From: Halohasta litchfieldiae
Lineage (GTDB): Archaea > Halobacteriota > Halobacteria > Halobacteriales > Haloferacaceae
Assembly (NCBI RefSeq): GCF_002788215.1
Contig: NZ_CP024845.1
Location: 1,240,001 to 1,304,000 of the forward strand
Direction of reading: 5' to 3'
DNA: 64,000 nucleotides
Below, one piece after another: positions 15,033-47,388 of the stretch; positions within the stretch are counted from its first letter, which is position 1, and every line of letters starts with the position of its first letter. A program made the translations under genes and the position numbers. Under the pieces are notes generated by a model that saw only the letters and a list, made by a program, of their open reading frames with translations, searched no databases and was not told where the DNA came from.

Positions 15033-16292
15033 ATAATCACTGGGTCAAAAAGAGTTCCTCGCTTTAGGGTGAATATGATAACCTCACTCATCAAGTAGAT
15101 ACATATACCTAGGATGTGTAAGTGGCGAATACAATTTGGCATCTATGAACAAAAGATCAATACAAGTCCTACACGTCGATGATGATCTAGATCTAACGAA
15201 TTTAGTAGGAAATTATCTCGAACGAAAAGATACACAAATCGAATTGCAGACAGCAGCGAGCATTGACGAAGGGCTAAGTATTGTTTCTGAAGGGAACATC
15301 GATTGTATCATCTCTGACTATGACATGTCCAATAAAACAGGGGTAGAATTCCTTCGATCCGTTAGAAAGCAAGATAAGAACCTTCCATTTATTTTATTTA
15401 CTGGAAAAGGAAGTGAGGAAGTCGCTAGCGAAGCGATCTCGATGGGTGTCACAGACTATATTCAAAAAAAGACTGCAACTTCTCAGTATGCACTTTTAGC
15501 AAATCGAATTAGAAACGCAGTCGAAAGTGTGTGGGCTCAAAACGAACGTGATCGCCACCTTGAGGCCATTGAAACTGCCCGTGAGGGAATCAGTATTCTC
15601 GATGAAGATGGGTATTTTGTATATGTTAACCAAGCCTATGCTGATCTCTATGGATACCAACCTAACGAGATTCTTGGCGAACACTGGGAGTTTCTTTCTC
15701 CTGCTGATGAAATTCCCTATACTTACGAAGAGATTTTGCCTATTCTAAACGAGTCGGGATACTGGCATGGGGTTACAACTGGCCTTCGGGCCGATCAAAG
15801 TACCTTTGTTGAAGATCAGGTCCTTGCGAGGACTAATGCTGACGGTGTTGTATGTACTGTTCGAAATATCACCGAACAAGAAGAGAATAAAAAAGAGCTC
15901 AAGCAAACGAATGTTTTGCTTTCGACACTCTTTGATGCCCTACCAGTTGGTGTGCTTGCCGAAGATGACAACCGCGATGTAATGGCAGTCAATCAACAAC
16001 TATATGAGTTTTTCGAGGTATCTGGTTCACCGAGTGAAGCCATTGGAAAAGACTGCGAACAGTTCGCAAGCAAAGTTAGTGAATTAGTAGTCGATTCTAC
16101 CGAATTTGTTGAACAAATTAACACAGTAGCGAGTGAGGGTGAACCAATCGAAGAAGATGAGATTGTTCGAACAAATGGGCAGACCTTTGAACGGAGTTAC
16201 CAACCGATTGAATTTGCTGGTGGAGATGGCCATCTCTGGGTCTATTATGACGCTACAGATCGAACAAATCATGAGCGCCAACTTAAAGCATT

Positions 16293-17736
16293 GGTCGTGT
16301 TGCAAAGCGGTCTAGACTTTGCCGCTGGTACTCTCAATTGAGAGGTCACAGTTGATGGCTGTTTTGGTCGAACGTTGGAGCAGTTCGTCGAGGAACGCTT
16401 GGTAGTACTCGGGGTCGGCGTACTTCACCAACCGAAGTTGGAGTATCGCTTCCAATCCCTCTGCTGTCCAGCGCATCCACTGGTTCTTGCACCGCTTGCT
16501 GACCTCGCCCATCAGTCGTTCGACGGGGTTCGAGGTCCACGGAACCTCGAACCCCTCGACAGCGTGCTCGGCGAACGTCACAATCGACGGCAGCCACCGC
16601 CGAAGATACCCTGCAGCCTTTGCTGACCCGAACTGCTCCAGTTGCCACGCTGTCTTCTCTAATCGCTCTCTCGTTCGCGCGATCCGCGAGCGGATCGCCG
16701 CGAACTCCTCCGCTGGACGATGCTTCGCCACAGAGTTCTTCAGATGGAACACCTCGTCGATCACCTCCGAAACGATCTCCTTCCGACGGTCCAAGGAGAA
16801 GACGCCATCGTCCCAGAGGGTGTAACCCAGCGTTCGGCCGACGTGGACGAGATCGAGCTGGTGGTCACGGTTTTCGTCGGTAAAGGCTGTGACGATGCCG
16901 CTATCAGCGTCACTGACGACCGTCGCGTCGTCAGTGACTGCGCCGATATCATCGAGTTCGGCGGCAGTTTCGTCCCAGTCAGCGTTGACCGACAGATCCA
17001 GCAGGGAGCGTGACTCTTCGGCGGTGTCTTCGCCGAGCGTTGCTTGGACGGAGTGGGACGAGCGGTCGTCGTCTTGGCTGTGGCACTTTGTCCCGTCAGG
17101 AATGACGGCGTCAGCGTCTGTGCCAGCGACACAGTCTGGAAGGAACTGTTTGAGCTTGTGGCCGTATTTCTTGGCACGGCGGTTGATGGTGGTCGGCGAC
17201 GGCATCGAGACGAAGCTGTCGCCGTGATTGGCAGCGTCTCGATAGCTGAGCGAGGTAGCGAGATCGACGCTTTTGGCGGCGATGTCCTGCTGATAGCGGT
17301 TCTGCCCGTCGAAGTCGAGAACGTCTTCGACGGGCCGGAAGTAGCTGGATTCGTCTGGGGAAGCGGCTGTATCTTCGACGTAGTGGAGAGAGAACTCGTG
17401 TTCTCCGGCAGTTGTGACAGCTGTGCGGGTGTCGGTGCCGGCGCGTTGGAAGCGCTGGTCACCGTTGCCATGTGCGTGTTTCTCACCACAGAGCGCCTCG
17501 ACGCTGGCGGCGTCGAGGCTCTCGACCAGCGATTCGAGAAGGACTGCTTCGAGGTTCTGGTCAGTGACGGCCTCGGCAAGCGTGGCGAGCGGTAGCGTTT
17601 TGTCGTCGTCGATACTCAGTTCGAACCGCACGTCGATTGTGGCGTGCATGGGGTACCTCGGTTTGGACACCAGAGGCAACCCCGCCTTCACGGGAGTCAG
17701 TTACTACTGAACTCTAGAGGACTTTGCGACACGACC
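16293..17736 (-). mobile_element. ISH6-like insertion sequence, copy 1 (1444 bp)
   Basis: Ends are imperfect inverted repeats (GGTCGTGTTGCAAAGCGG at left; the complement of the right end reads GGTCGTGTCGCAAAGTCC). The element is flanked by the exact 8-bp duplication AAAGCATT at 16285-16292 and 17737-17744. Length, 8-bp duplication and transposase type agree with the ISH6 group of haloarchaea. It has inserted into a sensor kinase gene, and the duplication shows that this is a simple, recent transposition. Confidence 0.9.
16312..17691 (-). CDS. ISH6-family transposase (copy 1)
   Basis: A 459-residue transposase whose catalytic residues can be placed at Asp of AVIPDGTKCHS, Asp of TVVSDADSGIVTAF and Glu of TSNPVERLMGEVSKRCKNQW, a layout like that of Mutator-type enzymes. 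The real start may be the ATG that gives MHATIDVRFELSIDDD (residue 15). The frame is intact and identical in sequence to copy 2. Confidence 0.85.
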   Translation of the reverse strand: MKAGLPLVSKPRYPMHATIDVRFELSIDDDKTLPLATLAEAVTDQNLEAVLLESLVESLDAASVEALCGEKHAHGNGDQRFQRAGTDTRTAVTTAGEHEFSLHYVEDTAASPDESSYFRPVEDVLDFDGQNRYQQDIAAKSVDLATSLSYRDAANHGDSFVSMPSPTTINRRAKKYGHKLKQFLPDCVAGTDADAVIPDGTKCHSQDDDRSSHSVQATLGEDTAEESRSLLDLSVNADWDETAAELDDIGAVTDDATVVSDADSGIVTAFTDENRDHQLDLVHVGRTLGYTLWDDGVFSLDRRKEIVSEVIDEVFHLKNSVAKHRPAEEFAAIRSRIARTRERLEKTAWQLEQFGSAKAAGYLRRWLPSIVTFAEHAVEGFEVPWTSNPVERLMGEVSKRCKNQWMRWTAEGLEAILQLRLVKYADPEYYQAFLDELLQRSTKTAINCDLSIESTSGKV

Positions 17737-18747
17737 AAAGCATTAAATAAGACGAGTCAGGACCTCATGGCTGCAAAAACGCATAATAAAGTCTGTGAGA
17801 TTGGTACCAAAGCAGCTCGTGATATTCTTGGACTTCAATTAAATGGGATCCATCTTTATGATGAGAATAAATCAGGACTTGTACCGATGGCAACCACTGA
17901 TGGTCTAACTGATCTCATCGGTGAGCCCCCGGTACTCACAGGTGATAATAGTATCGCATGGCGTGTCTACAACAAAGGAGATGCACTTGCACTTGATAAT
18001 GTCCATACAGATCCTGATAGATATAATCCAGATACGTTAATTCGGAGTGAAATATATCTCCCAATCGGTGATTATGGTATCTTAATCGGTGGTTCAACAG
18101 AGTCAGAACAATTTGATGATCAAGATATAGTACTTGGTGAAATACTAGCAGGGAACATCAACACAGCACTTGAGCAGGTTTCACAAACACAACAATTGCA
18201 GGCTCGCGAAAGAGAACTCACGCGTCAAAATGAGCGCTTAGAGGAGTTTACCAGTGTTGTTTCGCATGATATCCAAAATCCACTGACAGTCGCTGCAGGT
18301 AATTTGCAACTCGCTATTGAAAACAATGATAGCGAGTATCTCAATAAGGTAAAGCGTGCACACGACCGAATGGAGGCCTTGGTTGATAATCTCCTCACAC
18401 TCGCCCAGGAGGGTGCTAATACAGCAGACATCACCCCTGTATCACTTACTGAACTCTCTGAGGGTTGTTGGCAGAATGTGGAAACATCGACAGCTACTCT
18501 CAATGTTACTACTAATAGTATAGTTTTCGCTGACAAGAATCGGCTCAAGCAACTCTTTGAGAACCTTTTTGCAAATGCTGTCGAACACGGTGGAGAGACT
18601 GTGACAGTTGGCGCCTTAGAAGATGGGTTCTACGTCTCTGATGATGGGCCGGGAATACCCGTTGATGAACGTGATCAAGTGTTCAAATTCGGTCATTCAA
18701 CCTCAGATAGCGGAACTGGATTTGGTTTAAACATCGTCAAAGAAATT

Positions 18748-20191
18748 GGTCGTGTTGCAAAGCGGTCTAGACTTTGCCGCTGGTACTCTCAATTGAGAGG
18801 TCACAGTTGATGGCTGTTTTGGTCGAACGTTGGAGCAGTTCGTCGAGGAACGCTTGGTAGTACTCGGGGTCGGCGTACTTCACCAACCGAAGTTGGAGTA
18901 TCGCTTCCAATCCCTCTGCTGTCCAGCGCATCCACTGGTTCTTGCACCGCTTGCTGACCTCGCCCATCAGTCGTTCGACGGGGTTCGAGGTCCACGGAAC
19001 CTCGAACCCCTCGACAGCGTGCTCGGCGAACGTCACAATCGACGGCAGCCACCGCCGAAGATACCCTGCAGCCTTTGCTGACCCGAACTGCTCCAGTTGC
19101 CACGCTGTCTTCTCTAATCGCTCTCTCGTTCGCGCGATCCGCGAGCGGATCGCCGCGAACTCCTCCGCTGGACGATGCTTCGCCACAGAGTTCTTCAGAT
19201 GGAACACCTCGTCGATCACCTCCGAAACGATCTCCTTCCGACGGTCCAAGGAGAAGACGCCATCGTCCCAGAGGGTGTAACCCAGCGTTCGGCCGACGTG
19301 GACGAGATCGAGCTGGTGGTCACGGTTTTCGTCGGTAAAGGCTGTGACGATGCCGCTATCAGCGTCACTGACGACCGTCGCGTCGTCAGTGACTGCGCCG
19401 ATATCATCGAGTTCGGCGGCAGTTTCGTCCCAGTCAGCGTTGACCGACAGATCCAGCAGGGAGCGTGACTCTTCGGCGGTGTCTTCGCCGAGCGTTGCTT
19501 GGACGGAGTGGGACGAGCGGTCGTCGTCTTGGCTGTGGCACTTTGTCCCGTCAGGAATGACGGCGTCAGCGTCTGTGCCAGCGACACAGTCTGGAAGGAA
19601 CTGTTTGAGCTTGTGGCCGTATTTCTTGGCACGGCGGTTGATGGTGGTCGGCGACGGCATCGAGACGAAGCTGTCGCCGTGATTGGCAGCGTCTCGATAG
19701 CTGAGCGAGGTAGCGAGATCGACGCTTTTGGCGGCGATGTCCTGCTGATAGCGGTTCTGCCCGTCGAAGTCGAGAACGTCTTCGACGGGCCGGAAGTAGC
19801 TGGATTCGTCTGGGGAAGCGGCTGTATCTTCGACGTAGTGGAGAGAGAACTCGTGTTCTCCGGCAGTTGTGACAGCTGTGCGGGTGTCGGTGCCGGCGCG
19901 TTGGAAGCGCTGGTCACCGTTGCCATGTGCGTGTTTCTCACCACAGAGCGCCTCGACGCTGGCGGCGTCGAGGCTCTCGACCAGCGATTCGAGAAGGACT
20001 GCTTCGAGGTTCTGGTCAGTGACGGCCTCGGCAAGCGTGGCGAGCGGTAGCGTTTTGTCGTCGTCGATACTCAGTTCGAACCGCACGTCGATTGTGGCGT
20101 GCATGGGGTACCTCGGTTTGGACACCAGAGGCAACCCCGCCTTCACGGGAGTCAGTTACTACTGAACTCTAGAGGACTTTGCGACACGACC
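18748..20191 (-). mobile_element. ISH6-like insertion sequence, copy 2 (1444 bp)
   Basis: Identical in length and, as far as I can read, in sequence to copy 1 and in the same orientation. The flanking octamers differ, however: AAGAAATT on the left (18740-18747) and GATATATT on the right (20192-20199). The left flank is inside the kinase gene and the right flank is inside a DUF7344-like gene. Thus the element marks a deletion or recombination junction, not a simple insertion. Confidence 0.9.
18767..20146 (-). CDS. ISH6-family transposase (copy 2)
   Basis: Same 459-residue protein as copy 1, with no residue difference, so both elements are young or are kept alike by recombination. An intact gene could provide transposase for both copies. 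The two copies are in direct orientation, and homologous exchange between them would delete the kinase segment 17737-18747. Confidence 0.85.
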   Translation of the reverse strand: MKAGLPLVSKPRYPMHATIDVRFELSIDDDKTLPLATLAEAVTDQNLEAVLLESLVESLDAASVEALCGEKHAHGNGDQRFQRAGTDTRTAVTTAGEHEFSLHYVEDTAASPDESSYFRPVEDVLDFDGQNRYQQDIAAKSVDLATSLSYRDAANHGDSFVSMPSPTTINRRAKKYGHKLKQFLPDCVAGTDADAVIPDGTKCHSQDDDRSSHSVQATLGEDTAEESRSLLDLSVNADWDETAAELDDIGAVTDDATVVSDADSGIVTAFTDENRDHQLDLVHVGRTLGYTLWDDGVFSLDRRKEIVSEVIDEVFHLKNSVAKHRPAEEFAAIRSRIARTRERLEKTAWQLEQFGSAKAAGYLRRWLPSIVTFAEHAVEGFEVPWTSNPVERLMGEVSKRCKNQWMRWTAEGLEAILQLRLVKYADPEYYQAFLDELLQRSTKTAINCDLSIESTSGKV

Positions 20192-20566
20192 GATATATTG
20201 GCTGAACTCTCGGGATGTCGGGAGCAGTTTCACATCACCACTCCGCGAGTCGTAGTCGACAATTCCATTGGTATGCAACGCCGAGAGATGTGTCTGATAC
20301 AGTGAGATGTGGACGCGTTTCCGCTGTTTGTACGTCACTTCTTCGACCGGTATGTCGTTTTCTGCGGCGGCGATGAGTTCAGAGAGTTCTCGAATCTGGA
20401 GGCTACCGTCTGCACTCGGTTGATCTCGAAGGAACTGTACGGCAAGTCGCCGCCGCCGATTCGAGAGCATTTTGAACATATTGTCTTTCGAAAGCGCAAT
20501 CTCATCTGTTGTTTCGTTCAGACTGTGAGGGTAGTTTTGGCTTTCCAACCTCGATTGTGGGGGCAT
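20192..20566 (-). pseudogene. DUF7344-type winged-helix regulator, 3' end cut off by ISH6-like element
   Basis: The N-terminal winged helix is intact (LSKDNMFKMLSNRRRRLAVQFL, RISLYQTHLSALHTNGIVDYD-like segment, EFSQYI) and matches the pattern in the gene at 21751-22278 (ILANSRRRETIRHL ... SLHQTHLPKLAELGIVEYN ... DQYL). The relative goes on for about 60 residues with two membrane helices; here the frame runs into the insertion sequence and ends at 20159 after ten foreign residues. The DNA-binding half may still be made, without its membrane anchor. Confidence 0.75.
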
Positions 20567-21750: not shown

Positions 21751-22278
21751 TTATAAAAACCGTTGTCGGAGATACCACCGCACCGACCACAACTGATAGG
21801 TGACCGACAGTGCGAAGGCGACCAGAAAACCGCTGGCCCACAGTAGCGGGTCGACACTGTCGACAAGAGGGATCTCTGCGAGCGACGTGACGACCGCAAG
21901 TAGTGAGACGATGCCGAGCGTCCGGTAATACTCTCCCCATGTGAGCCCGGAGGGCGACAGCAGCGCTAGGTACTGGTCGACCTCACGCGCGGAGTTCCGG
22001 ACACTGACCGTCCGTGCTTCCAGGTTGTATTCGACGATCCCGAGTTCGGCGAGCTTCGGGAGGTGTGTCTGATGCAAGGAGTTGTAGACGCTCTCCCGAC
22101 ACGGTCGCGGCGGTGGCGACTGTCCCGTTTCATCGGTCGCAATCGCCTCCGAGAGCTTCCGAAGCGACACCGTTCGCCCCCCAGCGGTGTCGGTCAGGTG
22201 GCGGATCGTTTCCCGTCGACGGGAGTTAGCAAGAATATCGTACACGACCGACTCCGGGAGCGATCGATTTCTGAGCAT
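21751..22278 (-). CDS. DUF7344-type regulator with two membrane helices
   Basis: Residues 1-110 form a winged helix of the haloarchaeal DUF7344 type (VYDILANSRRRETIRHLTDT, ESVYNSLHQTHLPKLAELGI, VEYNLEARTVSVRN). Two hydrophobic helices follow at about 125-142 and 146-168 and a basic tail (RWYLRQRFL). Such membrane-tethered regulators are abundant in haloarchaea and are often near chemotaxis, surface or signalling genes. Upstream of its start is a five-unit 22-bp tandem repeat. Confidence 0.75.
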   Translation of the reverse strand: MLRNRSLPESVVYDILANSRRRETIRHLTDTAGGRTVSLRKLSEAIATDETGQSPPPRPCRESVYNSLHQTHLPKLAELGIVEYNLEARTVSVRNSAREVDQYLALLSPSGLTWGEYYRTLGIVSLLAVVTSLAEIPLVDSVDPLLWASGFLVAFALSVTYQLWSVRWYLRQRFL

Positions 22279-22678: not shown

Positions 22679-23602
22679 ATGACAAACGACAACACGCAAA
22701 TCGGCCTCTCGCGGCGAAAAGTACTCGGTGGAATCGGTGCAGTCGGCGTCGCAAGCGCAGGTGCAGGTATCGGGACAACGGCCTTCTTCAGCGACAACGA
22801 AAGCTTCGAGAACAACACGATCACCGCCGGCCAGTTCGAGCTGGCGGTCACCCAGTCGACACATTTCGTCGATCAAGATGGAATCGGCCCCGATGAACAG
22901 AACTTCGAGACGATGCTTGCCGAAGCACAGTCCGTGGACGACTCCGTCGAAGTCCTGGATGGCTTCCTCGACATCACCGACGCAAAGCCCGGTGACAGCT
23001 ACAAATACTGCTGGGATATCTGTGTGAACCATAACCCCGGCTACGTCCAGATCACCCTCGACAGCGAGGAACTGACCGGCAACGACAACGGTGTCACCCA
23101 CACCGACGCCTCGGGCACGCTCGGGGAGTACATGCTTGCGGTCGTCACCATCGACGACCAGCGCGCTGGCGACGACACGGATATCGTCTTCACCGGCACG
23201 CTTGCGGAACTCGTCGAGGAGTGGAACGAGGGGGGCCTCATTCACGCCGTCGCGGATGTCGACCCAGAAACTGAAGAGCCATTCGTCGAATACTGCCATC
23301 TCCCATGTGAGTCAGCTGTCGAGGGTGGCGAACTCTCGCCCGACGAAGATGGGGTCGAGGTCTGTGTCTACCTCTACCTGCCCTCGCATGCGGATATCGG
23401 ATCGGAAGTCGACGTCGACGGCCACACCTTCGGCCCACTCGACGCAGCAGACTCCCCCGGAAATCTGGTCCAGGGCGCTTCGTTCAGCGGTGATCTCGCG
23501 TTCGCCGCCGAGCAGTGCCGCCACAACGACGACCCGTTCACACACAACGGGACCGCAGACAGCGGGACCGATGGTGATGGGCTGACCAACCAGACTGCCT
23601 GA
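22679..23602 (+). CDS. secreted protein with SipW-type leader (TasA/CalY-like)
   Basis: The N-terminus has the run GLSRRKVLGGIGAVGVASAG, then GTTAFFSDNESFENNTITAG. An RR motif precedes a hydrophobic core, and the FFSDxESFxNNxITAG junction is the hallmark of proteins cleaved by SipW-type signal peptidases. The mature part (about 265 residues) is acidic, beta-rich, with several Cys (YCWDICVNHNPGY, YCHLPCES) and the shared tail LAFAAEQCRHND. TasA-type proteins form extracellular fibres in bacteria; the archaeal ones are thought to be matrix or surface proteins. It is first in a row of similar genes ending in a signal peptidase. Confidence 0.8.
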   Translation: MTNDNTQIGLSRRKVLGGIGAVGVASAGAGIGTTAFFSDNESFENNTITAGQFELAVTQSTHFVDQDGIGPDEQNFETMLAEAQSVDDSVEVLDGFLDITDAKPGDSYKYCWDICVNHNPGYVQITLDSEELTGNDNGVTHTDASGTLGEYMLAVVTIDDQRAGDDTDIVFTGTLAELVEEWNEGGLIHAVADVDPETEEPFVEYCHLPCESAVEGGELSPDEDGVEVCVYLYLPSHADIGSEVDVDGHTFGPLDAADSPGNLVQGASFSGDLAFAAEQCRHNDDPFTHNGTADSGTDGDGLTNQTA

Positions 23603-23648
23603 GCTGGCCGCCTGACTACCGAACACCCTCTTTCGAACCCATATTCAA

Positions 23649-25367
23649 ATGACAAACAACAACATACCGCTCTCTCGTCGCAGTGTACTCGGTGGTCTCG
23701 GCGCAATCGGCGTCGCCTCGGCCGGTGCCGGACTCGGCACAACCGCCTTTTTCAGCGACACCGAGAGCTTCGAGAACAACACGATCACTGCTGGTGGAGT
23801 CGAACTCCGGATGGACTGGCAACAGAGCTACTACACCGGTATTTCGGGGCAAGACCCAGAAGACCACACGACCTGGGAGCCGATCAACGCCTACCCCGAT
23901 CTGGACGGTGACAACCGCCAGGACCCGATCTACACACGCTTCCAACTGGCCGAGGACCCGACACTGGTCGGACTCCCAGTCGACGCTGACGACGAGGAGA
24001 TCGAACAGGCCTACCGCGGTCAGTTCGCCAGCTTCGAGGAGACGACTGGAAGCGGGAACACCCCATTCGTGGGTCCGGTGATCAATCTCGACGATGTCAA
24101 ACCCGGTGACAGAGGCGAGATCACGATCAGCAAACACGTCTTCGACAACCCGGCGTACCTCTGGCTGAACGCAAGCGGCTTCGAAAACACCATCGGCGAG
24201 CTGAACGAGCCGAAACGGGCGGCGCTCGTCGACCGGTACAGCGCGGAACTGGGCGACTCGTTCACTGACGCGGATCTGGTCGCGTTGGCAGAGGCCGAGG
24301 CCCAGTTCGCCAAAGAGATCGAAGCCACGCTCTGGTATGACGACGACTGTGACAACTTCTTCGACGGCGGCTCGCCGTCCTGTATCCAGTTCGTCGTCGA
24401 CAACACGGATTCGATGGGGAGCCAGGCTCCGGGCTCGTTTACCGAACTAAAAGACGAACTGCTGATCGAGGCACTCGAAACCTACGTCGGTCGACTCGAC
24501 ACCAAAGACGGCACAGAGCCAGCCGATGGCGATACCGGCTTGTTCAGTGTCGGACTCACCAACTGGACGACCGTCGCCGATACGGTTCTCACGCCGACGA
24601 GTACCGCGGCCGACATCGTTGGTACCGATGGTGGATCCTACACCGATTCGACAGGGCTCCAGACGATCAACTACCAGGACGAAATCATCGGTGGGACGGA
24701 TCTCCCGAACGCAATCGAAGCGGGGGCTTCGGTGCTCGGAGGGTGTCCAGAGGACGAAGATCGGATTATGGTTCTGATCACGAACGGGATCAACGTCGAC
24801 ACGAGTGACTTCCTGGCGTCAGCGAGCGCCAATCTTCGAAGCAACGGTGGCGAGGTCGACCAGTTCCTCATCATCGGGTTCGGAACCAGCGCCGACGACG
24901 CACAGACGCTGGGAGAGATCAGCACGCTTCCGGGGAACCACGCGTTCATGCTCGTCTCCGGTTCAAATATCGACGCCGCGATCAACGGCCCGACAGATCC
25001 AAACACGGAGCCGGTTACGAGCGTCGCCGAGGAGATCGGCTTTACTGCGGGGGGCGAAGAGACGATCTTCGAGGGCTCGCTGTACGATCTACTCACACAG
25101 CCCGCAGGGATCACCGATGGCTCGGTCGAGGGCTACCAAGTCGACGGGATTGCCGAGGGCTACCCGCTCGATGCCGACCGGAACCGCGATGGTCGACAGT
25201 GTTATCCCAACTCCGATACGCGCTGTATCGCCTTAGAGTGGCATCTCCCTTTCGAGGTCGGCAACGAAATCCAGGGTGATTCGGCAGTGTTCTCGCTCGA
25301 TTTCTACGCCGAACAGTGCCGCCACAACGACGGCTCGCACAATCCGTTCGTGGAGGCCGCCGACTGA
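23649..25367 (+). CDS. SipW-type secreted protein with von Willebrand A-like domain (altered MIDAS)
   Basis: Leader nearly identical to its neighbours (SRRSVLGGLGAIGVASAGAG, then TTAFFSDTESFENNTITAG). Residues about 245-450 form a von Willebrand A-like domain: CIQFVVDNTDSMGSQ at the metal-site strand, IMVLITNGINVDTSDF further on. The metal-ion-dependent adhesion site should read DxSxS; here it is DNTDS, so metal binding may be lost or altered. The C-terminus carries LPFEVGNEIQGDSAVF and FYAEQCRHNDGSHNPF, the tail shared by this cluster. Probably exported, processed and assembled on the cell surface. Confidence 0.8.
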   Translation: MTNNNIPLSRRSVLGGLGAIGVASAGAGLGTTAFFSDTESFENNTITAGGVELRMDWQQSYYTGISGQDPEDHTTWEPINAYPDLDGDNRQDPIYTRFQLAEDPTLVGLPVDADDEEIEQAYRGQFASFEETTGSGNTPFVGPVINLDDVKPGDRGEITISKHVFDNPAYLWLNASGFENTIGELNEPKRAALVDRYSAELGDSFTDADLVALAEAEAQFAKEIEATLWYDDDCDNFFDGGSPSCIQFVVDNTDSMGSQAPGSFTELKDELLIEALETYVGRLDTKDGTEPADGDTGLFSVGLTNWTTVADTVLTPTSTAADIVGTDGGSYTDSTGLQTINYQDEIIGGTDLPNAIEAGASVLGGCPEDEDRIMVLITNGINVDTSDFLASASANLRSNGGEVDQFLIIGFGTSADDAQTLGEISTLPGNHAFMLVSGSNIDAAINGPTDPNTEPVTSVAEEIGFTAGGEETIFEGSLYDLLTQPAGITDGSVEGYQVDGIAEGYPLDADRNRDGRQCYPNSDTRCIALEWHLPFEVGNEIQGDSAVFSLDFYAEQCRHNDGSHNPFVEAAD

Positions 25368-25403
25368 ACTGGTTGCCAGCGCTCACCTGCTCCCTTCGTC
25401 TCC

Positions 25404-25492
25404 ACCCACTTGGAGCACGGTCTCTCGACATCGTTGAGATGCTGTGACACGGGCCTCGCCCGTGGATGGCGGTTCGATTCCGTCAGTGGGTA
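25404..25492 (+). other. tRNA-like fold (remnant or coincidence)
   Basis: An acceptor-like pairing ACCCACT (25404-25410) with AGTGGGT (25485-25491) closes 89 bases that contain a T-arm with GGTTCGATTCC (25471-25481 region), an anticodon-arm-like stem CACGG/CCGTG and a possible AGCA/TGCT D-stem. Against a working tRNA: the D-loop is about 22 bases, the base before the would-be anticodon is C instead of T, and there is no TATA element upstream. It lies just before the ATG of the next secreted protein and may be a degenerate tRNA insertion. Confidence 0.3.
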
Positions 25493-25515
25493 TTCCCCTC
25501 TTGGGGACCCAAATC

Positions 25516-27081
25516 ATGACAGACGACAACACACCAATCGGTCTCTCCCGTCGACACATCCTCGGTGGAATCGGCGCAATCGGTGTCGCCTCGGCCGGTG
25601 CCGGACTCGGCACGACCGCCTTTTTCAGCGACACCGAGAGCTTCGAGAACAACACGATCACCGCGGGCGAGCTCGACTTGAAGATGGATTACCGGATGAC
25701 CTACCGCGGCGGGCGCGGCCGGCTCGCGGAGATACAGAACAACTACCCGAATGCGACGTTCGTCGACGAGGATATGGAGCCGACCGACGAGGACACCGGC
25801 GTCTACCTCCTCGACCAGGTTCCGAGTCTTGATCGCTACCCTACTGCGGACGGCTGGGTCCGCGGCGCAAACAGCATCTTCAACCCCGAAACAGGGGAGG
25901 GAGAGGGGTTCCGACGAGAGGATCTGGTCGACGCGGGCGATCTCGACGAGGCGCTCATCCGTCTCGACGACGTCAAACCCGGCGACTACGGGGAAGTTAC
26001 GTTCAGCACGCACCTTTACGACAACCCCGGCTACATGTGGATCAGCGGCGCGCTGACCGCCAACGACCAAAACGGGTACAACGACCCGGAGATGGCCGCA
26101 CTCGATGAGCTCGGGCTTCCGACTGACGACCCTGCTGGGGAGGGCCAACTCGCCGACGCGATTCAGGCGAAGGTGTGGTACGACGACAACTGTGACAACA
26201 TTCATCAGGCAGACGGGAGCGGCGAAGACAGTGGCGGCGTCGACGTGATGCTCTCGATTGACACCTCCGGCTCGATGGGAAGCGGTTCGGGAAGCAAGAT
26301 GGAGGACGCCAAGGCGGCCGCGTTGAACTTCGTCGACAATCTCGGACCAAATGACCGAATCGGACTGGTCACGTTCGATAGCTCCGGTTCGCTCGTCCAG
26401 GGACTCACGCTCGATCACTCGTTGGTCGCCGACGATCTCCAGCCCGGCTCGGCAGGCATCACCGCTGGCGGTCGGACGATGATGGACGCCGGTGTCGACC
26501 TCGCGGCGAACGAGCTCACCGCAAACGACCGCGGTGTCGACCAAGTCATCATTCTGCTCGGCGATGGCCAGCCCAACGAGTCTGCACGCCCTGGGAATGA
26601 TGACGTCCAGAATGCAATCGATGCAGCAGCGGACGCGAAAAATGCGGGCATCACCGTGTTTACGATCGGGCTCGATGTCAGCAGTGGCAGTACTGCCCAG
26701 AACACGCTCATCACAATGGCGAGTACGGACAACGGTACCACACTCTACTACGATACGCCGACCGGCGCGGACCTCGATGCGATCTACGCACAAATCTCCT
26801 CGGTCATTCTCACCGGCGAAGCAGTCATCGCCGAAGGGTCACTGCGTGATGTACTGACCGAACTGTCCGCAGGCATTCCCCTGGACGCGAACCTCGACGA
26901 CGAAAACCGCGTCTGCTTTACCAACTCCGTGACTCGCTGTTTCGGCTTCGAGTGGGAACTCCCCTTCGAGGTGGGCAACGAGGTCCAGTCGGATTCGGTG
27001 GCGTTCGCAGTTGGCTTTGCCGCCGAACAGTGCCGCCACAACGACGGCGAGACGAACCCGTTCGCGGTGGCTGACGACTGA
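25516..27081 (+). CDS. SipW-type secreted protein with von Willebrand A domain (intact MIDAS)
   Basis: ATG 25516 gives the cluster leader (GLSRRHILGGIGAIGVASAG, FFSDTESFENNTITAG). Residues about 240-440 are a full von Willebrand A domain: VMLSIDTSGSMGSGSGSKM has the canonical DxSxS site, TAGGRTMMDAGVDLA the Thr, and VIILLGDGQPNES the Asp of the metal site. The C-terminus ends FGFEWELPFEVGNEVQSDSV, FAAEQCRHNDGETNPF. Such domains bind protein ligands through a metal ion, which suits cell-surface adhesion or matrix assembly. It follows a paralogue with a degenerate metal site. Confidence 0.85.
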   Translation: MTDDNTPIGLSRRHILGGIGAIGVASAGAGLGTTAFFSDTESFENNTITAGELDLKMDYRMTYRGGRGRLAEIQNNYPNATFVDEDMEPTDEDTGVYLLDQVPSLDRYPTADGWVRGANSIFNPETGEGEGFRREDLVDAGDLDEALIRLDDVKPGDYGEVTFSTHLYDNPGYMWISGALTANDQNGYNDPEMAALDELGLPTDDPAGEGQLADAIQAKVWYDDNCDNIHQADGSGEDSGGVDVMLSIDTSGSMGSGSGSKMEDAKAAALNFVDNLGPNDRIGLVTFDSSGSLVQGLTLDHSLVADDLQPGSAGITAGGRTMMDAGVDLAANELTANDRGVDQVIILLGDGQPNESARPGNDDVQNAIDAAADAKNAGITVFTIGLDVSSGSTAQNTLITMASTDNGTTLYYDTPTGADLDAIYAQISSVILTGEAVIAEGSLRDVLTELSAGIPLDANLDDENRVCFTNSVTRCFGFEWELPFEVGNEVQSDSVAFAVGFAAEQCRHNDGETNPFAVADD

Positions 27082-27353
27082 TCGAAGCCGTGGTAAACAG
27101 GAATCACTCCGACGATACCGAGACCGCATCTCGTCATTCCTGATATCCTCCCTGAGGGCGTTCGACGCGATCTCGTATGTACCTAAAGTAGCTCGAAACC
27201 GTGCGGTAGCCCACCAAACCGGCGGTTGGCACACCCTACGGGCCCCGGTAGGTAATCCATGGATATACCACCGGCTGCCGATGGAACCGATACCAACCGA
27301 ACCACGCCGACCGCAGTCTGCGGTTTCGGGTCAGCAGCGTTCGGGTGCGGACC

Positions 27354-28118
27354 ATGACAATGAAAGATCGACGATTCCCAGATCCAACCCGCCGCCATCT
27401 ACTGACGAGCGTCGGTGTCGCTGGCGTCGGCGCATACGGTTTTCTCCGGCTCCGTGGCGCGTCGACGGCCACGCCACCCGACCAGTATCCGAACTACACA
27501 ATTGCCGACACCGATGGCCCACGCCTTATCGTCGGCTGGTACAGCACCTACAACGGAGCGGTGCTCTCCGGCTCGCCGCTCGACGACACCGAGTGGGACG
27601 CCAACGCGACCGATAGCTACATTGACGACGTCGCGACTGTTCTCGCTGACGACCCAGCAGTCGACGTCGACAATCTCCTGCCGGGAGACAGCGGCACGCT
27701 CAGCATCGGCCTGTTCGCCGACTCGGAGCCGCTCCGGGTGTGGGCGAGACTCGTCAGCACGGACAGTGGGCCACTCAGCGAGGCAGTCGGAATCGAAGCC
27801 TGGTACGACACCGGGATCTTCGGTGTCGGTGGCTGTCAGGGAGCCGAAGCTGGACCGTCGTTCGATCCAATTACCGACTCGGGTGCAACGCTTGCCGATC
27901 CGGGTGCACTCGTCGACGGTGTCGAGATCAATCCCGGAGCCTTTGACAACGGTGTTCTCGAGGCCGGCCAGCGAGTATGTGTCGCTCTCGCATGGACGCT
28001 GCCGGAGACTGCCGGAAACGAACTCCAGAACACGGCCGTCGGCTTCGATCTGCAGTTCGCTGCAGTCGCCGCAGATGGGATCGACACCGGGACGAACCCC
28101 TTCGCGGAGGGCCCCTGA
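27354..28118 (+). CDS. secreted protein of the SipW cluster
   Basis: The N-terminus (DPTRRHLLTSVGVAGVGAYG) has a twin-arginine signal and hydrophobic core but lacks the FFSDxESF junction of its neighbours. The mature domain has TasA-like features (LIVGWYSTYNGAVLSGSPL, LLPGDSGTLSIGLF) and the tail LPETAGNELQNTAVGFDLQF ... GTNPFAEGP, lacking the EQCRHN box. Possible starts are GTG 27345 and ATGs 27354 and 27360. The following gene starts one base after its stop codon, so they are one transcript. Confidence 0.7.
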   Translation: MTMKDRRFPDPTRRHLLTSVGVAGVGAYGFLRLRGASTATPPDQYPNYTIADTDGPRLIVGWYSTYNGAVLSGSPLDDTEWDANATDSYIDDVATVLADDPAVDVDNLLPGDSGTLSIGLFADSEPLRVWARLVSTDSGPLSEAVGIEAWYDTGIFGVGGCQGAEAGPSFDPITDSGATLADPGALVDGVEINPGAFDNGVLEAGQRVCVALAWTLPETAGNELQNTAVGFDLQFAAVAADGIDTGTNPFAEGP

Positions 28119-28119
28119 G

Positions 28120-29109
28120 ATGGCGGCTCCGGAGCTCACCCGCCGGAAGATCTTGGCCGGGATCTGTGGGATCGGCGCTACCGGCGCTGTCAGCGGAGGC
28201 GGTACGTATGCGTTTCTGACACGGAGAGTCGACACCGGCGGACAGATCCAGTCCGGAACGGTCTCGATCAACGTCGACTGCTCGCTGTGTTCGGTAGTTG
28301 ATAATACGGTCTCCTTTGCGGTCGACGGAATCGACCGTGGCGAGAGCGGGCGTGAAACGCTCGATATAACAGTGGGAACCAACCCGGCGCGGCTGTGGCT
28401 TCGGACCGACTGTCCGGCGGTTCCTGATCGGCTCGGCGATGCATTGCGGGTTCGACTCGGCCGCGACGATGAAACGCTCGCATCGGGGAGCCTTTCGTCC
28501 GTTCGGCGGGCGTTACGGACCGGAATCAGACTCGATACGGACTGCACCATTCCAGGAGAGCCTATTGAACTCCATCTCGACTGGGAGCTTCCCGGAGAGA
28601 CGGCTGATTCGGTCGCCGGATCGGGGACCGCACTCCGTTTCGATCTCGTCGCCGAGCAATGTCGACACACGCCGGAAGATGCAGAAACGGTCGACGTTAT
28701 CAATCCCTTCGCCACCACGCCCCCATGTGACGAAGCTGAAACCTGTCAGCCGTGTCAAGATGACCGTGTCGCCAGTGCGACCTTCGAGTACAATGGTCCA
28801 ACCGATCTCGTCGAGCTGATCCGAGCCGGCAACGGTGCCGGTAATGGGTCCGGGAACGGAGAAGTTCTGACAAGTCAATCCCTTGAGGCTGGTGACCTGT
28901 TCGGCGCGACCTTCCACGACCCTCCGGATATACGAGGTGGTCCTGATATCGAGTTCGTCGTCGACGGACAGCGTGTCGACACGTTCCACATCAGCTGTTC
29001 ACAGCCGTTTGGTCCGGGGCTCGTGATAACCGACGGCACGTACACACTGACCGTCCTATCGGCGGTCGATGCCGGCGGACACACGCTGTGTGAGGTGAGT
29101 TCACAATGA
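28120..29109 (+). CDS. secreted two-domain protein of the SipW cluster
   Basis: From ATG 28120: a Tat-like leader LTRRKILAGICGIGATGAVS, a first TasA-like domain to residue about 195 (ending LRFDLVAEQCRHTPEDAETV, VINPFAT). After a Cys-rich hinge CDEAETCQPCQDD comes a second domain of about 115 residues (ATFEYNGPTDLVELIRAGNG ... FHISCSQPFGPGLVITDGTY), a type found at the end of many haloarchaeal secreted proteins. The Gly/Asn-rich NGAGNGSGNGE loop is low complexity. Its stop overlaps the signal peptidase start by four bases. Confidence 0.7.
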   Translation: MAAPELTRRKILAGICGIGATGAVSGGGTYAFLTRRVDTGGQIQSGTVSINVDCSLCSVVDNTVSFAVDGIDRGESGRETLDITVGTNPARLWLRTDCPAVPDRLGDALRVRLGRDDETLASGSLSSVRRALRTGIRLDTDCTIPGEPIELHLDWELPGETADSVAGSGTALRFDLVAEQCRHTPEDAETVDVINPFATTPPCDEAETCQPCQDDRVASATFEYNGPTDLVELIRAGNGAGNGSGNGEVLTSQSLEAGDLFGATFHDPPDIRGGPDIEFVVDGQRVDTFHISCSQPFGPGLVITDGTYTLTVLSAVDAGGHTLCEVSSQ

Positions 29110-30122
29110 ATCTCAAAAAAGTAGCCAACATCGTCGCCGGACTGCTGTTGATCGCCATCGTCGTCCCGTTTGTCATCTACTCGGTGCCAGCGGTCGTCGG
29201 CGCTGACTACAGTTTCGTCGTTCTGACCGCCAGCATGACGCCCGCAATCGCTCCCGGAGACGTGGTCATCGTCGACGACCGTGACACAGCAACGATTGCA
29301 GCGGGTGACGTGATCACGTTCACCCGTGGAACCAACGAGGTTCCGGTAACACATCGGGTGACTGCAGTCACTGCGAGCGACGGCGAACTCGCCTTCGAGA
29401 CGAAGGGAGACGCCAACAGCGATCCTGACGCCTCGGTCGTGGTGGCCAGCAACGTCCTCGGGACAGTGATATTCTCAATTCCCTTCATTGGGTACGTGAT
29501 CCAGTTCACCAATACCCCCTACGGGTTTCTGGCACTCGTCGTTGTTCCGATTGGGTTGCTCATCGTCTCGGAGCTATGGACGCTCTACGACGGTCGGTCG
29601 TCCGCAACTACGTCTGCGTCGACCCCAGCGGCTGCTGGCGAACTTGCTACAGCGGCCGTTGCGGAACCGGCTACAGCGGCGGCTGACGAATCGGACTCAG
29701 CGGTGGCTCCTGGAGAGACTGCCACGGCAGCCGAGAAGTCGACCGAGGATATGTCTGGATTCGTCATCACGTCTAGGACGCTCGAAGGCGCATTCGGTCC
29801 ACTCCTCGTGCTGGCGATCTACAGCGGGTACGTCGCCTACATTGGAGCAACACAGACGGGACTGACAGCGGTCGCTATCGCTATGGTTGTCGGTAGTGGG
29901 ATTTCACTGCTTGCAGTTTCGATGCTCCTTGTTTGGCCTCGACTGCGACCGGAGGTCTCACTGCCGGAGTCCGTAACCGTTGAGTCGGAGAGCGACCCAG
30001 AGCTGTCGGATGCCGACCTAGAGCTGTCAGATACCGCTCCCGAACAGCCCACCGCTGACGGTGGCGTCGACCAAGTGGCCGACACACCACCCGCAGCAGC
30101 CGACGGGAGGGGAGACGAATGA
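29106..30122 (+). CDS. signal peptidase I (archaeal/ER type, SipW-like)
   Basis: N-terminal membrane helix (residues 8-33), then the catalytic serine in VVLTASMTPAIAPGDVVIV (Ser43), the histidine of VPVTHRVTAVTA (His83) and the aspartate in TKGDANSDPD (Asp102), as in archaeal and ER-type enzymes that use Ser/His/Asp. A second helix lies at about 123-165. After an Ala/Thr-rich linker there are two more helices (about 225-280) and an acidic tail. Encoded in the middle of a set of SipW-type substrates and overlapping genes on both sides by four bases, it is almost certainly their dedicated leader peptidase, active at the outer face of the membrane. Confidence 0.9.
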   Translation: MNLKKVANIVAGLLLIAIVVPFVIYSVPAVVGADYSFVVLTASMTPAIAPGDVVIVDDRDTATIAAGDVITFTRGTNEVPVTHRVTAVTASDGELAFETKGDANSDPDASVVVASNVLGTVIFSIPFIGYVIQFTNTPYGFLALVVVPIGLLIVSELWTLYDGRSSATTSASTPAAAGELATAAVAEPATAAADESDSAVAPGETATAAEKSTEDMSGFVITSRTLEGAFGPLLVLAIYSGYVAYIGATQTGLTAVAIAMVVGSGISLLAVSMLLVWPRLRPEVSLPESVTVESESDPELSDADLELSDTAPEQPTADGGVDQVADTPPAAADGRGDE

Positions 30123-30744
30123 GTCTTCGAGGGGTGGCTGTGATCGTCGCTCTCGTGGTCTTTGTCTCGGCTGCCGGAGGCGGCGTCTACACCGTGGGGC
30201 TGTTCTCCGATTCGTCGACCGTCGACGGACAGTTCTCGACTGTCGAGGCATTCTCCATGATCGAACCGACCGGTTCGATACCCAACAGTACGACTGGTTC
30301 ACTGTCTAACAGTACGCTGGTCGCTGGCAACGAGACAATGGTCAGTCCCGGTGACAACGAAACAGTGAGCAATGAAACGCTCTCTGATACAATCAGTACC
30401 AACGAAACCGCTAGCGAGCCAAACAGGAGCGATAAAACCGTCAGTGATGAGATGGCTGATACTGACGCTATGAACAATGGCACTGCCGAACCGGATGCGG
30501 TCGAAGAACCCGCTACTGAAACAGGAACTGAGACTGCCACCGAGGAGCCGACGACACCGACTCACAGCCGGTTGAGACTATTGTAGGACCGGTCGACCCC
30601 GAGTCGGACAGCGATACCGGGAGCAACGACATCCCAGAGAGCGGTTCCGATTCCGATTCAGAGACCGACACGACCGATGGGAGTTCGGAACGTAGCGATG
30701 AGCGGACTCCGGACAAGGAGAGCGATCTGAGTACAGCCAACTAG
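30119..30744 (+). pseudogene. SipW-type membrane/secreted protein, frame shifted near the C-terminus
   Basis: Starts MSLRGVAVIVALVVFVSAAG with the cluster-type junction GLFSDSSTVDGQFSTVEAF, so it has a SipW-type leader. The mature part is Ser/Thr/Asn/Glu-rich and disordered, with many N-x-S/T sites. The ATG frame stops at 30584-30586, but acidic coding (TIVGPVDPESDSDTGSNDIP ... DERTPDKESDLSTAN) continues in another frame to TAG 30742-30744, so one base appears lost or gained near 30560. The first 150 residues may still be made. Last gene of the cluster, overlapping the signal peptidase by four bases. Confidence 0.6.
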
Positions 30745-33957: not shown

Positions 33958-35124
33958 GTGTCTAAAACCAAACAAGCAGACGGTGAGATCCACGAGGACC
34001 AGCTTCTTAACTTTCTCGTCAACCGCCTTGACGAGGAAGTTTCGCTCTCGTTAGCCAATAACGCTGAAATCACTGCTGAAGACATCTATGAGGTCCTCGT
34101 CGGCGCTTGCGCCGACGGGACCTCTGTCTCTACGCTCTGTGCGTCGAGCCAGAACTCACCCGCTGGGAACACGGTCCTCTACCATCTTCGGACGAAGTTC
34201 GAGCCGGAACGGCTCGAACGAGTCGCTAACACGCTCCTGCGAAAGGATCTCGATGAATTGCTCCCCGAACAGGTGGAGGTCTGCGCAGACCTCCACCTGC
34301 GGCCCTACTACGGTGACGAAGACGACACAGACGGCCTCTATCACTCGGTAGCGAAGCGTGGAACCACTGCGTTCCACGCCTATGCCACACTCTACGCGCG
34401 TGTGAAGAACAAACGCTACACGCTGGCGGTACGCCGTCTCAAAGACGGCGATACCGCAAGTAGTGTCCTCGCTGAGTTCTTCGGTGTCCTCGACGGCCTT
34501 GACGCCGGGGTCAAGGCCGTCTACCTTGATCGCGGATTCTACGACAGTAAGTGTCTCACGCTGCTTCAGGCGCACAATTACGCGTACGTGATCCCGATCA
34601 TCCGGTGGGGTGAGGCGATTCAGCAAGAGCTCTCGGAAGGATGGAGTCGCGTCATTCAGCATGATCTGACGGGGAAACTCGACGGTCACAGCTGGACCGT
34701 CGATTTTCCCGTCTACATCGACTGTACGTACCTAAATGGGAAGTATGACGAGAACGGTGTGGCGCGTCACGGCTACGCCGCTGACGCGCCGTTCATCGAC
34801 TCACCACGGGACGCTCGATACCACTACTCGAAACGCTTCGGTATCGAGTCAAGCTATCGCTTGTTTGAGCAAGCGATAGCGACAACGACAACACGAGATC
34901 CAACGGTACGGCTGCTGTACGTGGTGGTGAGTCTCCTCTTACAGAACGTCTGGCGGTACCTTCACTACGAGTATGTGGCGACGCCCCGCCGAGGCGGGCG
35001 TCGCCTCTGGTGGTGGCCGTACAAGGAGTTCGTCAATATGATTCGACGAGCTGCGTGGACGGCCCTCGCGGTGCGTCGGGCCGTCCCCGCGAATCGGCCA
35101 CCTGACGACCGATTCCACCGCTAA
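33958..35124 (+). CDS. ISH3-family transposase
   Basis: 388-residue DDE enzyme of the IS4 superfamily: first Asp in VEVCADLHLRPYYG, second Asp in VKAVYLDRGFYDSKCLTLL, and Glu in YSKRFGIESSYRLFEQA (the Y-R-E block). GTG start at 33958, about 45 bases inside the left inverted repeat. The frame is intact, so the element may be active. Confidence 0.85.
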   Translation: MSKTKQADGEIHEDQLLNFLVNRLDEEVSLSLANNAEITAEDIYEVLVGACADGTSVSTLCASSQNSPAGNTVLYHLRTKFEPERLERVANTLLRKDLDELLPEQVEVCADLHLRPYYGDEDDTDGLYHSVAKRGTTAFHAYATLYARVKNKRYTLAVRRLKDGDTASSVLAEFFGVLDGLDAGVKAVYLDRGFYDSKCLTLLQAHNYAYVIPIIRWGEAIQQELSEGWSRVIQHDLTGKLDGHSWTVDFPVYIDCTYLNGKYDENGVARHGYAADAPFIDSPRDARYHYSKRFGIESSYRLFEQAIATTTTRDPTVRLLYVVVSLLLQNVWRYLHYEYVATPRRGGRRLWWWPYKEFVNMIRRAAWTALAVRRAVPANRPPDDRFHR

Positions 35125-44330: not shown

Positions 44331-45329
44331 CTACGAGCGACGCCCCGCGGTCGACTCAATGATCTTTCTCGGTGCGTTGAGGAACGTCTCTATGATACCG
44401 CGTTGCTCGATTTCCTCGTCGTCACGGAGATACGACCGGACGCGCTGGCTCAACAGTTCGACGGTCCCCGCAAGCAGGAGGATGAGGATGATACAGGCCA
44501 TCATCTCGGTGTAGTTGAACGTTCTGCGCTGGAGATCCAGTTCGAGACCGAGACCACCGGCTCCGATAAGCCCAAGTCCGATGGCGACCCGGACGTTGTG
44601 TTCGAGATCGAAGGCGATCCAGGCGATAAACTGGCGGAACACTTGACTCAACATCCCGAACGAGATGATCTGGGATTTGTTTGCGCCCGTGCTCCGAATC
44701 CCCTCAATGGGGCCGGTGGCAATCTCTTCGAGTTCGTCAGTGAACAGTCGACCCAGATAGCCGGTGGTGTCGATCATGATGGCGAGTGTCGCCGTAAAGG
44801 GAGTGACACCGCCGAGCGGGATGAGGATGAGCACCCAGACGAGCGCCGGGATGGCTCGGATCAGACTCATCGTCCCGCGGAACAGGAAATTAAACGGGTA
44901 GGGCACAACGCGTTCGCTGGCCATCACACCGAAAAAGATCGCCGCAGGAAGCCCGAGTACCGACCCGGCAAACGCGATCGAGACGGTGACAAGCGAGGCC
45001 TGAAACAGGTTTTCGGCCACGATGAACTCCCAGTACTGCATCACGTCGACGAAGGGGATTCCGTAGTAGGTCGTTGGCGGGAAGTACCCCCCGAGTGCAT
45101 CGATGAACTGTGGGATCTGCGTGATTAGTTCCGAGATCGAAAACCCGACCGAACGGAGCGAGATGATAAAAAAGCCGGTCCCGACAATGAGGCCGATAAG
45201 TGTGTAGAGCCGCCGCATCGTCTTGCGGCGTTTCATCTCGGTGAGTTTTTGGTCTATTGGACTGTCGCCAGTTGCTTCGAAGCCGAGATAGGTTTTGAGG
45301 CGGTTGGCCCCCGATGATTTGGAACTCAC
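44331..45329 (-). CDS. phnE: phosphonate ABC transporter permease PhnE
   Basis: 332 residues with a membrane helix near residue 45, a periplasmic-type loop (residues 70-110) and a permease domain with five helices. The cytoplasmic EAA-type loop is visible in DELEEIATGPIEGIRSTGANKSQII, before GAGGLGLELDLQRRTFNYTE, typical of PhnE. A 30-residue basic N-terminal extension is present. Overlaps phnC by four bases. Confidence 0.9.
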   Translation of the reverse strand: MSSKSSGANRLKTYLGFEATGDSPIDQKLTEMKRRKTMRRLYTLIGLIVGTGFFIISLRSVGFSISELITQIPQFIDALGGYFPPTTYYGIPFVDVMQYWEFIVAENLFQASLVTVSIAFAGSVLGLPAAIFFGVMASERVVPYPFNFLFRGTMSLIRAIPALVWVLILIPLGGVTPFTATLAIMIDTTGYLGRLFTDELEEIATGPIEGIRSTGANKSQIISFGMLSQVFRQFIAWIAFDLEHNVRVAIGLGLIGAGGLGLELDLQRRTFNYTEMMACIILILLLAGTVELLSQRVRSYLRDDEEIEQRGIIETFLNAPRKIIESTAGRRS

Positions 45330-46123: not shown

Positions 46124-46153
46124 GTTGAAAGAAAGGGGAAAGGATGGCTGCGA

Positions 46154-47155: not shown

Positions 47156-47388
47156 CCGAACGGTTACAAAGAGCCGGGATAACGATTTGCAGCATAGAGT
47201 CTGGATGGAACCGTCTCAGAGAGGCAGTACGTGGGTCGAGTCAGCACCGAACCAGCCGAGTATAGACTCGTCCGGATAGGTCTGGACGCCTAGAGATGGG
47301 ACAGTGATTGAGCCTCGAAATCGAATTGGCAATAGAGAGTACCCAGCGAACGCTTATGCAGTAGTTGTGGCTGGTCTCGACCGACTGC

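Follow-up and report, generated by a model that had tools for sequence, protein, structure and literature searches.

A conserved haloarchaeal gene cluster for putative TasA-type fiber subunits with Tat leaders, a SipW-type signal peptidase and von Willebrand A domains

Gene content, leaders and processing

The 64,000-nucleotide window considered here (contig NZ_CP024845.1, positions 1,240,001 to 1,304,000) stems from the 3.33-Mb, single-contig genome of the haloarchaeon Halohasta litchfieldiae. Seven genes on its forward strand, designated g1 to g7 and spanning window positions 22679–30586, encode five exported proteins together with a signal peptidase of the SipW type and a membrane protein with a SipW motif. 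In Bacillus, SipW processes TasA and TapA, the builders of biofilm fibers, and on this analogy a reading of the sequence made without database searches (the sequence-only reading) had proposed a self-contained archaeal system for the assembly of a matrix or of surface fibers. The analogy is strengthened by the predicted TasA fold of g1, by the assignment of g6 to the endoplasmic reticulum (ER)-type Ser/His signal peptidases, and by the self-contained nature of the set.

The genes g1 (22679–23602; 307 amino acids, aa), g2 (23649–25367; 572 aa) and g3 (25516–27081; 521 aa) encode a TasA-like subunit and two TasA-like scaffolds with an inserted von Willebrand A (vWA) domain, which is partly degenerate in g2 and intact in g3. 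They are followed by g4 (27354–28118; 254 aa), a divergent TasA-like protein, and g5 (28120–29109; 329 aa), in which a minimal TasA-like domain is joined to a Cys-rich C-terminal domain. The signal peptidase g6 (29106–30122; 338 aa) and the putative membrane anchor g7 (30119–30586; 155 aa in the open frame) complete the set. As noted earlier, reading frames mostly overlap from 27354 on: an ATGA is common to the g5/g6 and to the g6/g7 junctions, and the gap between g4 and g5 is 1 bp. A predicted regulator of the DUF7344 family (175 aa; Pfam PF24035, 2.3e-26), presumed to be of the helix-turn-helix type and with C-terminal hydrophobic segments, is encoded divergently from the cluster at 21751–22278 on the reverse strand.

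Three of the five exported proteins had been described as having near-identical leaders, and indeed the first ~52 residues of g1–g3 share 84–86% identity, as compared to 33–37% for the remainder. Ahead of the hydrophobic core, all five leaders contain a twin-arginine motif (LSRRKVLG, LSRRSVLG, LSRRHILG, PTRRHLLT and LTRRKILA in g1 to g5, respectively), and [LFI][ST]RR is present in 127 of 128 large subunits of related clusters. Since such motifs are the mark of the twin-arginine translocation (Tat) system, which exports folded proteins, Tat is the probable export route of g1–g5. Inspection of the g7 sequence revealed no RR; this protein is probably inserted by Sec.

The model of SipW-dependent leaders, TIGR04088, exceeded its cut-off in g1 (26.2 bits), g2 (27.8 bits) and g3 when the proteins were analyzed by hmmscan. 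The g5 leader, which carries a SipW-like motif, scored 17.9 bits against the cut-off of 19 in this search and 22.7 bits, over the cut-off, in a scan of the whole genome. That scan returned exactly four matches, all of them inside the cluster. With every TIGR04088 match of the genome confined to 8 kb, and with a gene order kept in dozens of genomes (see below), the cluster is more than a chance assembly.

The peptidase g6 matches the families TIGR02228 (2.6e-31) and NF046067 (SipW; 2.5e-30), the latter, however, under the equivalog cut-off. Its catalytic residues had been named as Ser43, His83 and Asp102, and this triad is invariant over 14 orthologs; the nearest solved relatives in the PDB are SEC11 subunits. 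The genome codes for three TIGR02228 peptidases, namely g6 (111 bits), a protein encoded at 847951 (51.9 bits, just above the cut-off), which presumably is the general signal peptidase, and a weakly matching one at 1859452; g6 is the sole SipW-like peptidase. A search of the same genome with Pfam PF00717 gave no match, this model being too insensitive for peptidases of the g6 type.

Immediately after the leader, g1–g3 and, roughly, g5 show the pattern A-[FY]-F-[SN]-D-x-E-x-F-x-x-N-T-hydrophobic-T-A-G, the mature start of g1 being AFFSDNESFENNTITAG. Among 126 mature subunits of related clusters, A1, D5, N12 and G17 are conserved in all 126, F9 in 125 and F3 in 124; part of this constancy stems from selection, since the segment itself was located with the help of position 1 and some of the motif. 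Mature TasA begins with AFND and likewise has Phe at P2', a residue that has been linked to processing of TasA by SipW versus LepB (PMC10269814). By analogy, g6 is inferred to cut near the junction of TTA and FFSD, with Phe at P2'. TasA assembles by donor-strand exchange (PMC9674648, PMC10151520); its N-terminal segment serves as donor strand and contacts the proline box, the most conserved part of the protein (PMC10151520, PMC9674648). In the g1 alignment, a KPGD motif is invariant, and it corresponds in position to LKPGD of TasA. Residues 1–15 of the g1 model are disordered, with values of the predicted local distance difference test (pLDDT) <50, as would be expected of a donor strand modeled without its partner.

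A common TasA-like scaffold with inserted vWA domains

The mature chain of g1 was modeled by AlphaFold without templates (mean pLDDT 72). A Foldseek search of 350,542 PDB chains with this model retrieved the B. subtilis TasA fiber (8aur) first, with an E-value of 1.2e-5 and a probability of 1.00, followed by the TasA crystal forms 5of2 (1.5e-4) and 5of1 (1.6e-4), the next match being at 2.4e-3. Alignment by VIA-align gave Z-scores of 8.8 for 8aur (4.9 Å over 170 residues), 8.7 for 5of1 (4.0 Å over 152) and 8.5 for 5of2 (3.5 Å over 146); the best chain other than TasA reached 6.2 (3.7 Å over 136). With TasA in the first three ranks, the scaffold of g1 is predicted to be a TasA-like jelly-roll. 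In a profile test with the sequence of TasA that is identical to 8aur, the profiles of g1, g3 and g4 each picked the C-terminal strand VQNKYQGNSIKLQFSFEATQW as the best segment, opposite GNLVQGASFSGDLAFAAEQC of g1, and the score of the g1 profile on TasA (25.1) was higher than on all 100 shuffled-TasA decoys (best, 20.3). No significant match was obtained when the g1 profile was searched against the PDB sequences; the best was AbpX (E 0.26, insignificant), whose alignment covers the TIxxGxL and PG motifs.

Profile-profile comparisons show that g1–g5 are built on one common scaffold. The g1 family matched g3 with a probability of 100 (E 7.5e-39), g2 being one row of the g3 alignment, g5 with 99.6 (1.2e-23), and g4 with 98.6 (9.7e-16). 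Family scans assigned no Pfam or NCBIfam entry to g4, which bears Cys in most orthologs; the Cys-rich C-terminal domain of g5 corresponds to DUF7467 in some orthologs.

The two vWA proteins of the sequence-only reading had been regarded as matrix proteins and as potential agents of metal-dependent adhesion. They are not separate matrix proteins, but TasA-like subunits with an inserted vWA domain, and only that of g3 is clear by Pfam (PF00092, 1.6e-17), whereas g2 remained below threshold (PF13519, 0.0033). Searches by tblastn showed g1–g3 to be alike at both ends, with the vWA domain in between. In the predicted model of g3 (m1840c812cb21), this domain comprises residues 208–399 of the mature chain and lies between the scaffold strands 183–189 and 403–408; its insertion inside the scaffold is backed by the homology of both flanks to g1. 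Because vWA matches fill the result of the fold search, the latter is uninformative on the scaffold of g3, which was assigned on account of its profile homology with g1.

The best structural match of the g3 vWA domain by Z-score is Mfa5 (6tnj; Z 26.5, 1.8 Å over 188 residues, 30% identity), and SpaC and PilB are also among the matches. In Mfa5, a fimbrial tip protein of P. gingivalis, the vWA domain is likewise enclosed by two segments of a beta-sandwich domain, and the metal ion-dependent adhesion site (MIDAS) consists of Asp, Ser, Ser, Thr and Asp (PMC7835359). The MIDAS of g3 is complete in the same residues (DTSGS, T287 and D316 of the mature chain), and across 28 relatives D215, S219 and T287 never vary. 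In g2, the corresponding motif is DNTDS and the last position is changed from D to N. Metal-dependent adhesion, as judged from sequence and model, is therefore plausible for g3, with its intact MIDAS and pilus-adhesin-like fold, and doubtful for g2.

The g7 protein carries the SipW-like motif GLFSDSSTVDGQFST, in agreement with its description as a seventh, SipW-type membrane protein; the extent to 30744 assumed for it did not hold, as the open frame ends at 30586. The break lies at about 30560–30586 within the acidic tail, and since acidic sequence continues up to 30744 in another frame, the g7 tail is frameshifted. This may be a real mutation or a sequencing or assembly error. Orthologs of g7 (220–362 aa) are membrane-anchored, share the post-leader motif, and have long tails with a high content of Asp, Glu, Gly and Asn. 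The tail of g7 contains eight N-glycosylation sequons as compared to 2.6 in shuffled sequences, only 2 of 5000 shuffles reaching eight, from which we infer a putative glycosylated stalk or anchor.

Conservation, genomic setting and related systems

Of 167 genomes of the family, 102 possess an ortholog of g6 (E ≤1e-15). g4 and g6 occur together in 82 genomes, and the 65 genomes that lack g6 all lack g4 as well. In a sample of 345 genomes of the phylum, 22 were g4-positive, all but one from the same order, and the exception was weak. Neighborhoods were compared for 20 g6 ortholog loci of the family and for 46 named haloarchaeal loci from Halorubrum, Halobellus, Halalkalirubrum, Natronocalculus, Haloparvum, Halopenitus, Natrialba, Natronosalvus, Natronomonas, Halosimplex, Haloglomus, Halobaculum, Halolamina and other genera. 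The kept order consists of a divergent regulator, at least two large subunits (mostly three), g4, g5, g6, and, where the contig reaches, a g7-like gene. At least 44 named loci with at least two subunits retain it, and 41 of these 44 include at least one vWA subunit; g4 was detected by tblastn in 43 of the 46. The number of subunits per cluster ranges from 2 to 6, and their length from 250 to 680 aa. In 32 of the 40 related clusters that could be tested, a DUF7344 homolog precedes the first subunit gene in divergent orientation.

Natronorubrum aibiense and Halomontanus rarus harbor such clusters on megaplasmids, where the genes are labeled “VWA domain-containing”, “SipW-dependent-type”, “hypothetical” and “signal peptidase I”. 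The cluster of the window is flanked by insertion sequences: two copies of a transposase region on the reverse strand (16290–17736 and 18745–20191) are 100% identical over a 1338-bp gene and slightly further, and another transposase gene is present at 33958–35124. The patchy presence in the genus (see below), the copies on plasmids and the neighboring insertion sequences are consistent with a set that is mobile and dispensable. The left flank has a lower GC content (0.42–0.56 versus 0.61), and adjoining the insertion sequence on this side is a second DUF7344 gene (20159–20566, reverse strand), which may belong elsewhere. Natronocalculus amylovorans possesses a second SipW-type cluster, inverted and divergent, with its own peptidase, beside the first (L090/L061). 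Metagenome-assembled genomes of Actinomycetota (L126, L127) contain a short g5-like gene of the TasA type directly upstream of a SipW-like peptidase gene, which is a minimal bacterial version of the subunit/peptidase pairing. Farther downstream in the window (44331–54529), a set of genes judged by eye to code for phosphonate uptake and a carbon–phosphorus lyase-like system includes an ATP-binding cassette transporter and phn-like genes.

The closest known counterparts are the tapA-sipW-tasA genes of Bacillus subtilis and sipW-calY of B. cereus, in which the genes of a dedicated ER-type SipW peptidase and of its substrates likewise stand together. Phe at P2', the TasA jelly-roll, the C-terminal strand motif, and an N-terminal segment placed as the donor strand are common features. 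The leaders, however, are of the Sec type in Bacillus and of the Tat type in the haloarchaeal cluster, which moreover has a single scaffold shared by five different subunits, vWA domains inserted in subunits, the Cys-bearing g4 and g5, the acidic, sequon-rich anchor g7, and the DUF7344 regulator. The archaeal bundling pili, AbpA of Pyrobaculum calidifontis and AbpX, are TasA-like donor-strand pili of archaea; AbpX was the best, albeit insignificant, sequence match of the g1 profile in the PDB, but these pili belong to another lineage, and no significant sequence relation to g1 emerged from that search. The vWA pilus adhesins Mfa5, SpaC and PilB share with the cluster a MIDAS-bearing vWA domain, which in Mfa5 is also placed between beta-sandwich segments (PMC7835359). 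Their host scaffold, in contrast, is of the CnaA type rather than TasA-like, and they follow other secretion and assembly routes. RrgA and GBS104 are further pilus adhesins with vWA domains.

The tafi are Tat-fimbriae of haloarchaea with TafA as the core subunit (Galeva et al. 2025, iScience 28:111793, cited in PMC12687288). They resemble the present system in being haloarchaeal surface filaments of Tat-exported subunits with a DUF7344-like regulator nearby, while TafA is not detectably homologous to g1 and the peptidase and gene set are others. The TafA loci in our data (L070–L074) contain a regulator judged by eye to be DUF7344-like and a distinct S26 peptidase. Regulators of one kind thus seem to be common to two unrelated Tat-exported systems. 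As separate systems, both may work alike, forming Tat-exported fibers processed by a signal peptidase.

Interpretation and significance

Taken together, the conserved cluster is probably a haloarchaeal variant of the TasA/SipW fiber system, previously unnamed as far as the literature searched shows. The vWA and signal peptidase proteins are not mentioned in the text of a study on the biofilm proteome of Halorubrum lacusprofundi (PMC5118699) or in that of a paper on Halorubrum saccharovorum (PMC10223598). The sequence-only reading was partly supported but incomplete, since the twin-arginine leaders, the single TasA-like scaffold of all five exported proteins, the vWA insertion and the DUF7344 regulator have to be added to it. 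We consider it probable that the genes encode a Tat-exported, SipW-processed donor-strand fiber of the TasA type with vWA adhesin subunits. In such a system, the subunits would fold in the cytoplasm before export via Tat. Cleavage by g6 at the proposed site would then free the first ~15 residues to act as a donor strand filling the groove of the following subunit, licensing polymerization outside the membrane; because the donor strand would be exposed by this cleavage, the folded subunits would be kept from polymerizing early. g1 would form the shaft, and g3 (and g2) could be adhesive subunits or tips, presenting the MIDAS as Mfa5 and SpaC do. g4 and g5 would be minor, initiating or capping subunits, and g7 could tether the fiber or the peptidase to the membrane via a putative glycosylated acidic stalk, while the divergent DUF7344 protein would control the gene set.

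Several observations weigh against a functional TasA-type fiber. The likeness of g1 to the TasA fold is moderate (TM-score 0.35–0.48, pLDDT 72), the profile match to the single TasA sequence is weak, and a shared fold is not proof of polymerization. The camelysin/TasA model PF12389 stayed below its gathering score in every protein of the window (best, 20.1 versus 22.5 bits), for which reason the proteins are named TasA-like instead of being filed as members of that family, although two orthologous subunits pass the threshold (29.7 bits). The leader of g4 has neither an FFSDxE/SipW motif nor a TIGR04088 match, and g4 therefore may not be a substrate of g6. General Pfam and NCBIfam scans, which did not include a TapA profile, turned up no TapA homolog. 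The g7 frameshift could be a sign of partial decay of the system in this strain, and the absence of g6 orthologs from all three other genomes of the genus indicates that the set is dispensable.

The weak PF12389 matches could also be taken to indicate a camelysin-type secreted metalloprotease system (Pfam Peptidase_M73) without a structural role. Since they are limited to the leader region (residues 17–71) and HExxH was not found in any protein of the window, this explanation was rejected and appears hardly conceivable. Another explanation would make the cluster a divergent copy of tafi, with g1 as TafA. Both types of locus occur in the same class of organisms, both combine twin-arginine leaders and a short post-cleavage motif with a signal peptidase and a DUF7344-like regulator, and the leaders of g2 and g3 weakly match the TafA model NF052520 (20.1 and 16.4 bits). 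However, the cut-off of this model is 190 bits, the match is confined to the leader (residues 10–46), and comparison of the TafA profile with g1 gave a probability of 0.05 of 100. TafA was not matched in this genome, though homologs exist in the family, and TafA neighborhoods contained no significant match to g4 or to the subunit models, those to g5 being marginal. The peptidase of the TafA loci is a different, distant S26 member (4.9e-7 with the g6 model), and in some genomes (G118, G141, G130) the two systems are located at separate places. Direct membership in tafi, rejected for the lack of TafA in the genome, the different peptidase and the negative profile comparison, is very improbable.

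It also seems rather unlikely that the proteins are non-polymerizing adhesins or sensors associated with the membrane or S-layer, merely released by SipW-type cleavage and using the TasA fold as a display domain. Such a role would be in line with the number, size and diversity of the subunits in each cluster, which are unlike a uniform shaft, with the anchor supplied by g7, and with the common occurrence of vWA domains in single adhesins. It is at odds with the invariant N-terminal segment, a counterpart of the TasA donor strand that is disordered in the modeled monomer, as a donor strand left unfilled would be, and with the retention, in almost every cluster, of several subunits sharing this segment.

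The donor-strand fiber with vWA adhesin subunits, if it exists, would provide a reason for the separate SipW-like peptidase found beside the general one in haloarchaea, and would offer a genetically compact system in which attachment, aggregation or biofilm formation of archaea can be tested. With it, the fiber principle of Bacillus biofilms would extend to a large class of archaea. In current automatic annotation, the set is dispersed over entries termed “hypothetical”, “VWA domain-containing” and “SipW-dependent”. To our knowledge, neither export of folded subunits through Tat nor adhesin domains built into the fiber subunit are known for TasA. More tentatively, the cluster could define a distinct haloarchaeal filament besides type IV pili and tafi, combining folded export by Tat, SipW-type cleavage as the switch for polymerization, and integrin-like vWA domains in the fiber subunits.

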